From Nocardia sp. NBC_00403 (GTDB taxonomy: Bacteria; Actinomycetota; Actinomycetes; Mycobacteriales; Mycobacteriaceae), in contig NZ_CP107939.1 of NCBI RefSeq assembly GCF_036046055.1, forward strand, positions 62,001-126,000: a stretch of 64,000 nucleotides of DNA. Reading direction: 5' to 3'. Under the pieces are notes generated by a model, which searched no databases, was not told the origin of the DNA, and saw only the letters and a program-made list of their open reading frames with translations. Position 1 is the first letter of the stretch. Every line of letters starts with the position of its first letter. The position numbers and the translations under genes were made by a program. Below are positions 42,801 to 61,194 of this stretch, in pieces.

Positions 42801-43327
42801 ACGCCCCGCTCGACCAGGTGGTAGGCAAGTGCATCGACCCTGGTGCCGAACTCGGCGTAGGTGAGAGTCGCGCCCGCGTACTCCAACGCGACCGCATCGG
42901 GTGTCCGCCGAACCTGGGCCTCGAACTCGCTGATCAGCGTCTCGGTCGGCGCGAAGTTCGTCGGCAGCACCCCCACCGCCGCGTCGAGTGCGTCATCGAG
43001 CAGCTGCTCGAGAATCGCGCCGAGCGCACCGTCGGCCGAATCCATCAGTTCCGGCAACTGACCTGACACCACCACCGGCACCAGCGCGTCCGGGCCGAGC
43101 GCGCCCCCCATGGCCTCGTCGAGCACCCCGAGTTCGGTGGCCAGCGCACCGTAGCTGATCACGGTGTCGGCGTGCCGCAACGCGATTCGATCCGGATCCA
43201 GCTCGGCGACCGTCCCGATCAATCCTGGTAGGTCATCGATTCCGTAGGCGCGACGCAGCGCCGCATGGGGATGCGCGGCACCAGGGTTGCCGAGCTCGCT
43301 GGATGCGACCGATTCTGCGTGGGACAT
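18071..43327 (-). CDS. giant NRPS, modules 6 (A-T) to 13 plus thioesterase
   Basis: The 8418-residue protein is organised as docking stub-A-T-(C-A-T)x7-TE: 8 adenylation, 8 carrier, 7 condensation and 1 thioesterase domains. All A domains keep the SGSTG P-loop, the FDxS substrate-pocket motif and the catalytic GK(L/V)(D/N)R lysine. All carriers keep the GGNSL/GGSSL phosphopantetheine serine, and all C domains keep HHIxxDG. No epimerization domain is visible, so any D-residues would need dual-function C domains. ATG 43327 overlaps the stop of the upstream NRPS (ATGA), indicating coupled translation. The first ~115 residues are a truncated adenylation-like segment that pairs with a similar tail on the partner. 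mbtH follows 34 bp downstream. Confidence 0.97.
18850..22053 (-). other. NRPS module 13 (C-A-T)
   Basis: C-domain HHIAADG is near 21630, the A-domain FDLSVWE near 20035 and the carrier serine near 19003. The hand-read specificity code is DLWTLILVSK, close to module 5 (DLWHLILVSK). Substrate unassigned. The carrier motif is preceded by [11 protein letters not shown]. Confidence 0.8.
22054..25214 (-). other. NRPS module 12 (C-A-T)
   Basis: HHIAADG is near 24820, the A-domain motif FDASMLEL near 23245 and the carrier serine near 22221. Code DALFTGTVIK, with leucine replacing the usual tryptophan at the third position. Together with module 8 it belongs to a different A-domain subfamily (SPSFDxS). 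Substrate unassigned; the pocket looks hydrophobic. Confidence 0.75.
25215..28390 (-). other. NRPS module 11 (C-A-T)
   Basis: HHIAADG is near 28010, FDVSLWGY near 26425 and the carrier serine near 25390. Code DVWDFILVSK, identical to module 7, and long stretches around the pocket are shared with it. Both activate the same, unassigned residue. Confidence 0.8.
28391..31556 (-). other. NRPS module 10 (C-A-T), serine
   Basis: HHIAADG is near 31165, FDVSVWEF near 29580 and the carrier serine near 28563. Code DVWHFSLVDK, the EntF serine code, so L-serine is the expected substrate. Confidence 0.85.
31557..34776 (-). other. NRPS module 9 (C-A-T)
   Basis: HHIATDG is near 34355, FDVSVWEC near 32760 and the carrier serine near 31725 ([10 protein letters not shown]). 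Code DVWEHGAISK. A glutamate at pocket position 278 is typical of domains that take basic residues such as ornithine or diaminobutyrate; that assignment is tentative. Confidence 0.75.
34777..37940 (-). other. NRPS module 8 (C-A-T)
   Basis: HHISADG is near 37535, FDPSVLEW near 35950 and the carrier serine near 34950. Code DPLISGGIIK, unusual in having proline and leucine at the second and third positions. It groups with module 12 by its SPSFD motif. Substrate unassigned. Confidence 0.75.
37941..41142 (-). other. NRPS module 7 (C-A-T)
   Basis: HHIAADG is near 40735, FDVSLWGY near 39140 and the carrier serine near 38115 (GGSSLDATQ). Code DVWDFILVSK, the same as module 11. The aspartate at 278 is uncommon. 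Substrate unassigned. Confidence 0.8.
41143..43327 (-). other. NRPS module 6, A-T half with N-terminal docking stub
   Basis: Residues 1-~115 are a truncated adenylation N-terminus ([20 protein letters not shown]...). A complete A domain follows (FDVSVWEF near 42360) and then a carrier (serine near 41310). Code DVWHISTVDK, serine-like at 8 of 10 positions relative to module 1. Its condensation partner is the last C domain of the upstream protein. Confidence 0.8.
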
Positions 43328-45012
43328 CAGCTATTTCCTTCCGAATCGATTTCCAACCCGGAGTTGGAGATGACGGCCTGCGCGTCGGTGAGCAGCGTCC
43401 GCAGCACTGCGGCCAGACCACTGCCGCCGAGCGCGGCCAAGACGCCGGGCACCAGCCCGGCGAGGGAGACATTGATCAGCGCTTCCGGTTTCGCCGCCGC
43501 GCCCATCGCCTTGGCGACCGCCGCGATCTTGGCGGCGAGCTGGTCGTAGGTCACCGTGTGCGCGCCGTGTTCGAAGGCCACGATGTCGGGCGCGATGTCC
43601 GCCGCGGCCGCGATGAGTGCGGGCAGCTCGGCCACTGTCACCGGCTCGATGGCCGTGCTGGGTGCGCGCCGCACCTGTTCTGCGCCGGTGCGGATGTCGA
43701 TGGCCCGGATCGCGATCGACGGCGCTGCCACGACAGTCGAGAACACTCGCAGCAGCCGATCGGCGAACAGCTGGACCGTGGCGGCATCGAAAATGTCCGT
43801 CGCGTAACCGAACCTCAGCTGCAGTCCGGCCGGTTCGCCTGCCGCGTCGAACTTTTCGATGCCGGTGAGCTGTAGATCGAACTTCGCGTCGGCCAGTTCC
43901 AGATCGAGCGTCTCGACCGCGAGCCCGGGCAGCCTCACCCGGCCTGCGGGCATGTTCTGGAAGGTGAACAGGACCTGGAACAGCGGGGTGTAGGTGCTCG
44001 AGCGGGTGCACTCCAGCGCGTCGACCACGCGCTCGAACGGCACATCGGCGTGCGAGAGTGCAGCCACATCCCGGTCCCTGGCCTGCCGGAGCAGATCGGC
44101 GAAGCCGGTGCGCGGGTCGATCTCGGTGCGCAGCACCACCGTGTTGACGAACATGCCGATCAGGTCGTCGAGCTCGCGTTCCCCGCGACCTGCGACCGGA
44201 GCGCCGATGGCAATGTCACTGGTGCCGGACAGTTTGGCGAGCAGCACCGCGAATGCGCTGTGGATCAGTGTGAACAACGTAGTGCCGTGCTCACGGGCGA
44301 CGCTGTTCAATCGGCGGGTCAGCTCGGCATCGACCGCGAAAGCAATGGTAGCGCCGCGCATTTCCCGGCGCGCCGGCCTCGGTCGATCGGTCGGCAGTGC
44401 GAGAACCTCGGGTAGTCCGGCCAATTCGGTGGTCCAGTACGCGAGTTGCCGAGACAGCAGGCTCGCCGGATCGCGATCGGAACCCAGGATTTCGCGCTGC
44501 CATTCGCTGTAATCGGAGTACTGGATATCGAGTGGGGCCCAGTCCGGTCGCTGCCCGGCGGCTCGGCCGAGATAGGCGCGCACCAGATCGCGCGTCATCG
44601 GTGCGACCGAGTAGCCGTCGGCACTGATGTGGTGCGCGACCACCACGAGAACGTGCTCGTGCCTGCCGGTTTCGAACAGCGCGATCCGGACCGGTGGTGC
44701 GGTGGTGACATCGAAACCGGTGGCGACGAACTCGTCGAGTTGCGCGCCGAGGCCCGAAACCCGCATCGGAATCGGAGTCAGATCGATGCTGACGGCGGTG
44801 CTGTCGAGGACCTCCTGCACCGGGCCGCGCTCGGTGTCGGGATACCTGGTGCGCAGAGCTTCGTGCCTGCTCAGCACATCCAGGACCGCGGCAGTGAGCG
44901 CGTCGAGGTCCAGCACGCCGGTCAGCCGCAGGGCGGCGGGGATGTGGTAGGCGGAGGAGTCCGGAGCCAGCCGGTTGACCACCCACATCCGCTGCTGTGC
45001 GAGCGAGAGCGC
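43327..45012 (-). other. module 6 condensation domain and C-terminal docking stub
   Basis: The C domain (HHISADG near 44630) is followed from about 43650 by [20 protein letters not shown]... ending near [13 protein letters not shown]. The tail aligns with the first ~85 residues of a normal A domain and with the N-terminus of the downstream NRPS, then stops before the P-loop. Confidence 0.8.
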
Positions 45013-60000: not shown

Positions 60001-61194
60001 CGAGAGCACGTGATACCTGGCCACGGTGTCGCCGAAGGTCAGGTCGTTGCCGAACAGCATGATGTTGGCCAGCGGACCGAATAGCGCACGTCGCGCGGGC
60101 TGCCCATCGTGTTCGGCGTCGCGGCGGATGTCCTCGTGCCGGTATCGCTGATGACGCAGTGCGCCTGCCACCTCGACTCTGGTCGCCCGCAGTAGCGCAC
60201 CCCAGGTGACCGGGGCGGCGGAGCGTGCGCCGCCGACCGGCAGCCGCAGCGGCACGATATTCGACAGCATCCCTGCCGAACGCCGCATCACCGCCGTAGT
60301 GCGCGCGGTCACCGGCAGGCTGAGCACCACTTCGTCCCGATCGGTGAGCCGTCCCAGGTAGCAGGCGAAGGCCGCGAGCAAGACCACCGCGAAGGTCGAA
60401 TCCTGGGTCGAGGCAAGGACATTCATTTGTTCGACCAGGCGCTCCGGCAGCGCACGGCCCGCAATCAGATTCATCGCCGCCCGCGGCGCGGTGCGGCCGT
60501 CGAGGCTGGTCGCGCTGTCGAGTCCGGCGACCCGCTGCGCCCAGTGAGCGCGGTCGGTGGCGTATCGCGTGCTGTCGCGGTAGGCGAGCTCACCTTCGAC
60601 CAGCGCGGCCAGCTTGCCGGGCGGCGCCGCGGCGAGCTCGGTGCCGAGCACCCGCGCGGTGTAGCGCTCGGCGACACGGTTGGTGCTGGTCAGCGCACCG
60701 TATCCGTCGAAGACGAGATGGTGGGCCCGCAGATACCAGAAGTACCGCTGGTCGGCGACCCGCAATACAGCGCATTCGGCGAGGCGATCGGCGATCAGAT
60801 CGACCGGTGCGGCCATATCCGTCCGCATCCAATCCTGCGCGGCGGCAATCGGATCGGCGTGTGTGCGCAGATCGATCACTTTGATGTCTTTGGAAAGTTC
60901 GGGGTCGACGCACTGATAGGGCACACCGTCGGATTCGCCGAGCCGCACCAGGATCGATTGGCATTCGTAGGCCGCCTCGATCGATTCCTCTTGCAGGATC
61001 GCAATATCCAGTTCGCCGTGCACATCCACGTACTGCGCGATATTGATCGGCACATCGGGATCGATCAGCTGCGCGTACCACACCCCCAGCTGCGCGGGCG
61101 CGAGCGGAAACGGCGTCGGCGCGGGTGGCACCGCCCCGGCATGGGCGGTCTCATCCGGCCGTGCACCGAACTCACCCAACTCCGTACCGTGCAC
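43327..61194 (-). CDS. giant NRPS, modules 1-5 plus condensation domain of module 6
   Basis: The 5955-residue protein is organised as (C-A-T)x5-C-docking stub. GTG 61194 is the start because AGGAGG lies 5 nt upstream; the ~68 residues of open frame above it have no coding character. The chain begins directly with an EntF-like condensation domain instead of a loading A-T, so the first residue is N-capped by an acyl or aryl group supplied in trans. A-domain codes give Ser, unassigned, Ser, Thr and unassigned for modules 1-5. All carrier serines and HHxxxDG motifs are intact. It ends with a C domain and a ~105-residue adenylation-like remnant. The stop overlaps the ATG of the next NRPS gene. The promoter should lie in the 491-bp gap upstream. 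Confidence 0.97.
45013..48224 (-). other. NRPS module 5 (C-A-T)
   Basis: HHIAADG is near 47840, FDLSVWEF near 46230 and the carrier serine near 45185 ([10 protein letters not shown]). Code DLWHLILVSK, differing from module 13 at one position. Substrate unassigned. Confidence 0.8.
48225..51482 (-). other. NRPS module 4 (C-A-T), threonine
   Basis: HHISADG is near 51065, FDFSVWEL near 49455 and the carrier serine near 48400 (GGSSLLAAK). Code DFWNIGMVHK, the canonical threonine code. The A domain ([15 protein letters not shown]) is clearly of another lineage than its neighbours, suggesting it was exchanged in. Confidence 0.87.
51483..54690 (-). other. NRPS module 3 (C-A-T), serine
   Basis: HHIAADG is near 54280, FDVSVWEF near 52665 and the carrier serine near 51650 (GGNSLNATQ). 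Code DVWHFSLVDK, serine. Confidence 0.85.
54691..57885 (-). other. NRPS module 2 (C-A-T)
   Basis: HHIAADG is near 57472, FDVSVWEL near 55885 and the carrier serine near 54865. Code DVWSFALVHK, which I cannot assign; the pocket is small and partly polar. Confidence 0.8.
57886..61194 (-). other. NRPS module 1: EntF-like starter C, A (serine), T
   Basis: The starter C domain spans residues ~30-470 with HHLVFDG near 60715. Its RHQRY...LFGPLANI and LSTGPVEDL segments parallel EntF's condensation domain, which joins 2,3-dihydroxybenzoate to serine. The A domain (FDVSVWEF near 59110) has code DVWHFSLVDK, serine, again as in EntF. The carrier serine is near 58062. Confidence 0.85.

Follow-up and report, generated by a model that had tools for sequence, protein, structure and literature searches.

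Introduction

Serine-rich nonribosomal peptide assembly lines of Nocardia were surveyed by Komaki et al. (2014; PMC4035055), the only report that matched our search of the open-licence literature on such lines. In that paper's account of the lines, the nonribosomal peptide synthetase (NRPS) line #36, whose predicted products are "Ser-rich 13 aa peptides", is present in four of five Nocardia species, N. brasiliensis being the one without it, and its clusters are adjacent to a Ser-rich 12-module line, #35, which was found in all seven Nocardia strains surveyed (12 modules and Ser-rich in five, partial in two). Physiological roles were left for later investigation. The subject of the present analysis is an NRPS operon of Nocardia sp. 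NBC_00403, carried on a stretch of 64,000 bases (bases 62001-126000 of the 8,725,101-base single-contig genome), hereafter the window. This operon has in common with line #36 its 13 modules, its Ser-rich prediction, a larger Ser-rich NRPS nearby and its genus, and it is most likely the orthologue of that line, the match being one of description and not of locus tags. Judged from its sequence, the operon very probably encodes a canonical collinear 13-module assembly line making an N-acylated all-L tridecapeptide.

The genes of the operon are as follows.

43327..61194, minus strand, NRPS gene 1: 5,955 amino acids (aa); starter condensation (C) domain, adenylation-thiolation (A-T), four C-A-T and a terminal C domain (modules 1-5 and the C domain of module 6)
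18071..43327, minus strand, NRPS gene 2: 8,418 aa; A-T, seven C-A-T modules and a thioesterase (TE) domain
17815..18087, minus strand, MbtH-like protein (Pfam PF03621), whose open frame shares bases with the 3' end of gene 2

Results

Architecture of the assembly line

The open frame of gene 1 extends from 61398 to 43327 (6,023 aa), and the 5,955 aa are counted from a GTG start codon at 61194, preceded at a distance of five bases by GAGGAGG. The stop codon of gene 1 and the start codon of gene 2 share one base (TGATG). The assembly line thus spans 18071-61194, and the operon, in the order gene 1, gene 2, mbtH, spans 17815-61194. A preliminary description of this DNA had reported two coupled genes of 14,373 residues, the same total as obtained here, and had placed the assembly line at 43327-61194, coordinates that are correct for gene 1 and fall short of the full line.

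Searches of the genome with hidden Markov models (HMM) assign to the two genes 13 domains each of the Condensation, AMP-binding and PP-binding families, and the E-value of at most 1.1e-48 for every C domain excludes a chance match. A Pfam scan of five pieces spanning both genes finds only Condensation, AMP-binding, AMP-binding_C, PP-binding and one Thioesterase domain, with no methyltransferase (MT) domain among them. None of the 13 Condensation matches in the two genes is of the epimerization (E) type, and, because the HHxxxDG motif is kept in all 13 C domains, no heterocyclization (Cy) domain is present. The serine of GGxS is found in each of the 13 T domains (12 by pattern, the thirteenth by eye). 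The HMM and Pfam searches return the domain order that had been read earlier, that is C-A-T five times and C on gene 1 followed by A-T, C-A-T seven times and TE on gene 2; Pfam content, Condensation typing and the HHxxxDG motif likewise agree with the earlier statement that E, MT and Cy domains are absent. The domains at the ends of the line and at the junction between the two proteins are these.

59806..61110, minus strand, C1, starter-type condensation domain, motif HHLVFDG, in the starter clade of the tree described below
43678..45012, minus strand, C6, at the end of gene 1 with its A-T partner on gene 2, found by HMM match
18131..18808, minus strand, Thioesterase domain, motif GWSLGG

Chain start and stereochemistry

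A tree was built from 84 of the 96 Condensation-family matches of the genome, the remaining 12, almost all fragments, having been removed by hand. C1 falls within one clade with seven other N-terminal domains labelled starters (support 0.999), in keeping with the capped N-terminus proposed in the preliminary description, and its closest relative in the tree is the starter C domain of a giant NRPS encoded nearby (support 0.886). All 10 domains labelled post-E form a separate group together with three others (support 0.939, or 0.994 without the most distant member), and all 12 internal C domains of the window lie outside this D-accepting clade. The starter-type C1, the 12 C domains outside the D-accepting clade and the lack of an E domain together make an N-capped all-L peptide the best prediction. 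The tree does not part acyl from aryl donors.

Substrate codes

To read the codes, the 13 A domains of the line were aligned with the 16 A domains of the neighbouring NRPS, the code positions following the GrsA numbering. The codes are listed below; for module 8 the coordinates are those of the C-A block.

58636..59691, minus strand, A1: DVWHFSLVDK, Ser
55414..56463, minus strand, A2: DVWSFALVHK
52198..53259, minus strand, A3: DVWHFSLVDK, Ser
48973..50031, minus strand, A4: DFWNIGMVHK, Thr
45754..46818, minus strand, A5: DLWHLILVSK
41885..42925, minus strand, A6: DVWHISTVDK, Ser-like
38666..39721, minus strand, A7: DVWDFILVSK
35507..37939, minus strand, C8-A8 block: A8 code DPLISGGIIK
32288..33337, minus strand, A9: DVWEHGAISK
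29111..30151, minus strand, A10: DVWHFSLVDK, Ser
25946..27016, minus strand, A11: DVWDFILVSK, identical to the A7 code
22802..23830, minus strand, A12: DALFTGTVIK
19556..20617, minus strand, A13: DLWTLILVSK

The code DVWHFSLVDK is that of Ser-activating domains, including those of the enterobactin and turnerbactin synthetases (PMC3795760), and DFWNIGMVHK is a Thr code (PMC4169593). The earlier hand-read assignments are reproduced, with exact Ser codes in modules 1, 3 and 10, a Ser-like code in module 6 and an exact Thr code in module 4. The label "Ser-rich" accordingly holds to the extent of four of the 13 positions (three exact and one Ser-like) plus one Thr, and no further. A basic residue had been suggested for module 9, for which we find no support, its code being without a match in a text search of the literature. 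The same search gave no match for six of the seven distinct unassigned codes (those of modules 2, 5, 7/11, 9, 12 and 13; module 8 is not among the six), and shorter fragments of three codes matched unrelated literature only, whereas the Ser and Thr codes searched alongside did match. The substrate of A12 is perhaps aliphatic. A PDB search with A1 returned general A-domain relatives, headed by linear gramicidin synthetase A, which do not settle the substrates.

The identity of the codes of modules 7 and 11 noted earlier is borne out. A recent duplication of these modules is ruled out, as A7 and A11 are 64% identical, and no repeat of more than 85% identity was found within the window. Codes ending in -ILVSK occur in modules 5, 7, 11 and 13 of the window line and in seven A domains of the giant NRPS.

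On this reading C1 would join a fatty acyl group to Ser-1, and the chain would grow as Ser-x-Ser-Thr-x-Ser-x-x-x-Ser-x-x-x, being handed from protein 1 to protein 2 over the C6/A6 split. The TE domain would then free the peptide, either by hydrolysis or by cyclisation onto a Ser or Thr hydroxyl.

Distribution in the genus and family

A search of 148 Nocardia genomes with 999 residues of gene 1 (C1-A1) gave gene 1 orthologues in 88 of them, one in each and the present strain included, at identities of at least 61% and scores of at least 1,160 bits. The cut lies at a break in the scores, the next match among those listed reaching 1,044 bits, and the count refers to gene 1 only. Among the matches listed below the break (53-58% identity) are the giant NRPS of the strain itself and many long open frames that resemble it. 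In a search of 301 genomes of the family, the matches listed include four genomes of another genus (g22) at 1,062-1,105 bits and 57-58% identity, in frames of 5,938-10,976 aa, and one g25 genome at 57% and 1,023 bits. Among the best 80 of 354 loci, named orthologues are those of N. australiensis (83%), N. niwae (75%), N. cyriacigeorgica EML 446 (75%) and N. thailandica (73%); in the same set, for which candidates were picked by short patterns, N. brasiliensis IFM 10847 has a 50% match only.

Variation between species

Gene 2 and the number of A domains were compared in 24 loci, the present one included, with split or gapped A-domain hits merged by eye in G132, G033 and G053 (relatives are given by their genome numbers in this survey). 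The number of A domains is 13 in 14 loci, 14 in G072, 11 each in G141 and G119, 15 in G078, where gene 2 is split across two frames, and at least 15 each in G011 and G101, both of which run to the end of the stretch compared. A remnant of gene 2 is exemplified by L166:7985-11098, where the C-terminal half of the assembly line is lost. Remnants of this sort, present in G094, G038, G113 and G114, are frames of 714-1,470 aa in which parts of two A domains survive, and a Pfam scan of the G094 remnant, the sole one scanned, found neither a T nor a TE domain.

The codes of G047 match those of the window line at all 13 modules, the gene 2 domains being 71-85% identical, while those of G134 depart from it at modules 6, 8 and 12. 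Of the 19 relatives whose gene 2 is full, 14 have an exact Ser code at the position of module 6, three a Ser-like code and two DAWFLGVVL. Four exact Ser codes and one Ser-like code are found in each of G112, G134 and G044.

The identity of gene 2 was computed domain by domain against eight relatives. Against G134, G044, G112 and G061, A8 is 38-40% and C8 50-52% identical, whereas A7, T7 and T8 are 71-89% identical; these four relatives carry another C-A block at module 8, with the code DVPHFS(M/G)VE. Against G143 and G091, A11 is 39% identical and C11 and T11 are 56-66% identical. As judged from these identities, the C-A block of module 8 is replaced in the former four relatives and the A11 domain in the latter two. 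The drops in identity at C8-A8 and at A11 show that the predicted product varies between species partly through the exchange of C-A or A units.

Neighbouring genes

The gene immediately upstream of the operon is a possible regulator.

61686..63119, minus strand, GAF-domain protein with a weak DhaR-like stretch

Upstream of it lie the mycofactocin genes MftG and MftF and a fusion of MftB with MftC (genome 125184-130094; L005:10184-15094). Twelve relatives were compared in their upstream flanks: all 12 have the GAF gene, as the upstream neighbour of the line, and an MftF-type glycosyltransferase, and six have MftC; MbtH follows gene 2 in 10 of the 12, there being no match in G134 and the stretch from G011 ending before it. 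In a further 32 genomes, of which 16 carry the NRPS and 16 lack it, the glycosyltransferase is present in all 32 regardless of the NRPS and is thus not tied to it, for which reason it was rejected as a peptide-tailoring enzyme. The GAF gene is found in 16 of 16 NRPS-positive and six of 16 NRPS-negative genomes, a comparison in which relatedness is not corrected for, and this is suggestive of a pathway regulator. No MftC was found anywhere at E-values of 1e-60 or lower in G072, G141, G022, G036, G071 and G106, all six of which have the glycosyltransferase.

The other flank encodes a biotin carboxylase, an acyl-CoA dehydrogenase, HpcH, an acetoacetate-CoA ligase, a desaturase and TetR, and looks like a group of catabolism genes. 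This group was seen as a set only in G114 and G094, many of the stretches compared ending soon past gene 2. Two adjacent proteins on this side of the window (9463-10710 and 10913-12184; 415 and 423 aa) each contain the TetR DNA-binding domain twice and form a tandem pair of double-TetR regulators. A 419-aa open reading frame (ORF) at 6462-7721 is without a Pfam match and has weak matches to P450-derived families, and is possibly a degenerate P450.

The giant neighbouring NRPS

The giant NRPS lies 33 kb away and is encoded on the minus strand by one open reading frame of 18,837 codons, from genome position 46727 across the contig join to 8715315. It comprises a starter C domain and 16 full A domains, together with two E domains and, close to its end, a C domain. 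Unless the assembly is in error, it would be among the longest bacterial NRPSs. The neighbouring NRPS of G044 and G038 has 12 full A domains as against 16 here; in G044 the count is exactly 12 over 14,582 aa, against 13 in that genome's orthologue of the window line. Among the matches listed from the genus, many lie in frames of about 14,600 aa. Within the giant gene a tandem repeat of 6.5 kb, or approximately two modules, was observed at 87% DNA identity (genome positions -1830..4663 and 4584..11077, negative values crossing the contig join), and this repeat may partly explain the presence of 16 rather than 12 modules.

Discussion

Several observations weigh against the reading of the operon as the source of an N-acylated all-L tridecapeptide. 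At the cut used, 60 of the 148 genomes are without a gene 1 orthologue. In four of the 24 loci (G094, G038, G113 and G114) gene 2 is a degenerate remnant with gene 1 still full-length, which suggests that the full product is dispensable in some species. Eight of the 13 modules, with seven distinct codes, lack a supportable substrate assignment. The scan of the flanking ORFs recognised no gene for a fatty-acyl ligase, an acyl carrier or an acyltransferase, and the sole AMP-binding ligase in the window outside the NRPS (2592-4796) scores as an acetoacetate-CoA ligase, which rules it out as the acyl donor. In view of this, the cap could instead be an aryl group. As to the acyl donor, ligases that activate the acyl group may be encoded outside a lipopeptide cluster, according to a study of Rhodococcus NRPSs (PMC5550956).

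An aryl cap leads to the alternative that the operon encodes a siderophore synthetase, in which the starter C domain would add a catechol or other aryl cap, and Ser together with the residues of the unassigned codes would provide iron ligands. The exact Ser code is shared with the enterobactin and turnerbactin synthetases (PMC3795760), and the C-domain tree leaves acyl and aryl donors unseparated. However, among 30 flanking ORFs searched with Pfam none was recognised as belonging to the synthesis of dihydroxybenzoate or salicylate, to hydroxyornithine synthesis or to siderophore uptake. An ATP-binding cassette (ABC)/FtsX pair and a major facilitator superfamily (MFS) transporter, both closer to the giant NRPS than to the operon, and an upstream FAD/2Fe-2S oxidoreductase are present, none of them siderophore-specific. 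A siderophore is accordingly regarded as improbable.

It might also be supposed that the window line and the giant NRPS form the two halves of a single pathway, with products that are joined together or cooperate, as the two NRPSs are close together here, in G044 and in G038 and draw on a common palette of codes. Each of them has a separate starter C domain, however, and the window line has its own TE domain. Moreover, giant-like frames of 14,550-14,602 aa (approximately 55% identity) occur in genomes, G043, G079 and G111 among them, that are outside the 88 with gene 1. We consider a joint pathway very unlikely. That the cluster is decaying or silent and gives no product in this strain is hardly credible, despite the gene 2 remnants in four relatives and the split gene 2 of G078, because the motifs checked here are intact in all 13 C domains, all 13 T domains and the TE domain, and the agreement of the codes with those of G047 at 13 of 13 modules has been kept at only 71-85% identity of the gene 2 domains.

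The predicted N-acylated all-L tridecapeptide is therefore retained as the best explanation of the operon. It is possible, with the balance tilting slightly the other way, that it belongs to a lipopeptide class without a described member, encoded through gene 1 in 88 of 148 genomes, in which the A domains with -ILVSK codes would select a building block whose code is unpublished, and whose variants would arise partly by replacement of C-A or A units. In that case the species variants would offer a ready-made set from which to learn where NRPS lines tolerate cutting and joining. As for the role of the peptide, the likeliest guess from conservation and composition is that of a cell-surface or secreted amphiphile, such as a surfactant or an envelope lipopeptide. 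Many species of Nocardia, a genus of soil bacteria and opportunistic pathogens, keep a 43-kb assembly line without a known product; the peptide, if found, would account for a conserved and costly trait of the genus, while the unassigned codes would extend A-domain prediction.

Comparison with known systems

Three described groups of NRPSs other than the lines of Komaki et al. (2014) offer points of comparison. Rhodococcus genomes encode many putative lipopeptide NRPSs with a starter C domain and a Ser/Thr-rich product (Ceniceros et al., 2017; PMC5550956); the window line resembles them in its N-terminal C-starter and its predicted Ser/Thr-rich product and differs in belonging to another genus. 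Gene cluster family (GCF) 6 of Männle et al. (2020; PMC7413640) is a conserved 7- to 13-module Nocardia NRPS with a nitropropane dioxygenase, a metallopeptidase, an esterase, an epimerase and an enoyl-CoA dehydratase as invariant neighbours. Both it and the window line are large and conserved in the genus. GCF 6 is nevertheless ruled out as the published counterpart, since the neighbour set described for it was not seen in 40 ORFs around the window NRPS and the giant, where only esterase-like genes (a beta-lactamase-fold protein and a GDSL lipase) recall it. Peptidolipin NA is a cyclic lipopeptide of Nocardia (PMC11364655). Its synthetase would be expected to have seven modules, as compared with the 13 of the window line. 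Peptidolipin NA is a heptapeptide.

The preliminary description had stated that no described Nocardia peptide shows the pattern of this line. This does not stand for the cluster line, which fits #36 of Komaki et al. (2014), and does stand for the product, on which no report was found in the open-licence literature. As far as we have searched, the line is thus already known and its product is still an orphan, and the claim to discovery is a modest one, the cluster line having been published in 2014. The neighbouring NRPS has 16 modules here as compared with 12 in line #35, a number matched by G044. Section 13 of Komaki et al. (2014), in which these lines are treated, gives neither C-domain types nor individual codes nor block exchange, all three of which were read here. 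What the present analysis adds is the assignment of C1 to the starter type, the placement of 12 C domains outside the D-accepting clade and the exchange of a C-A block and of an A domain between species.

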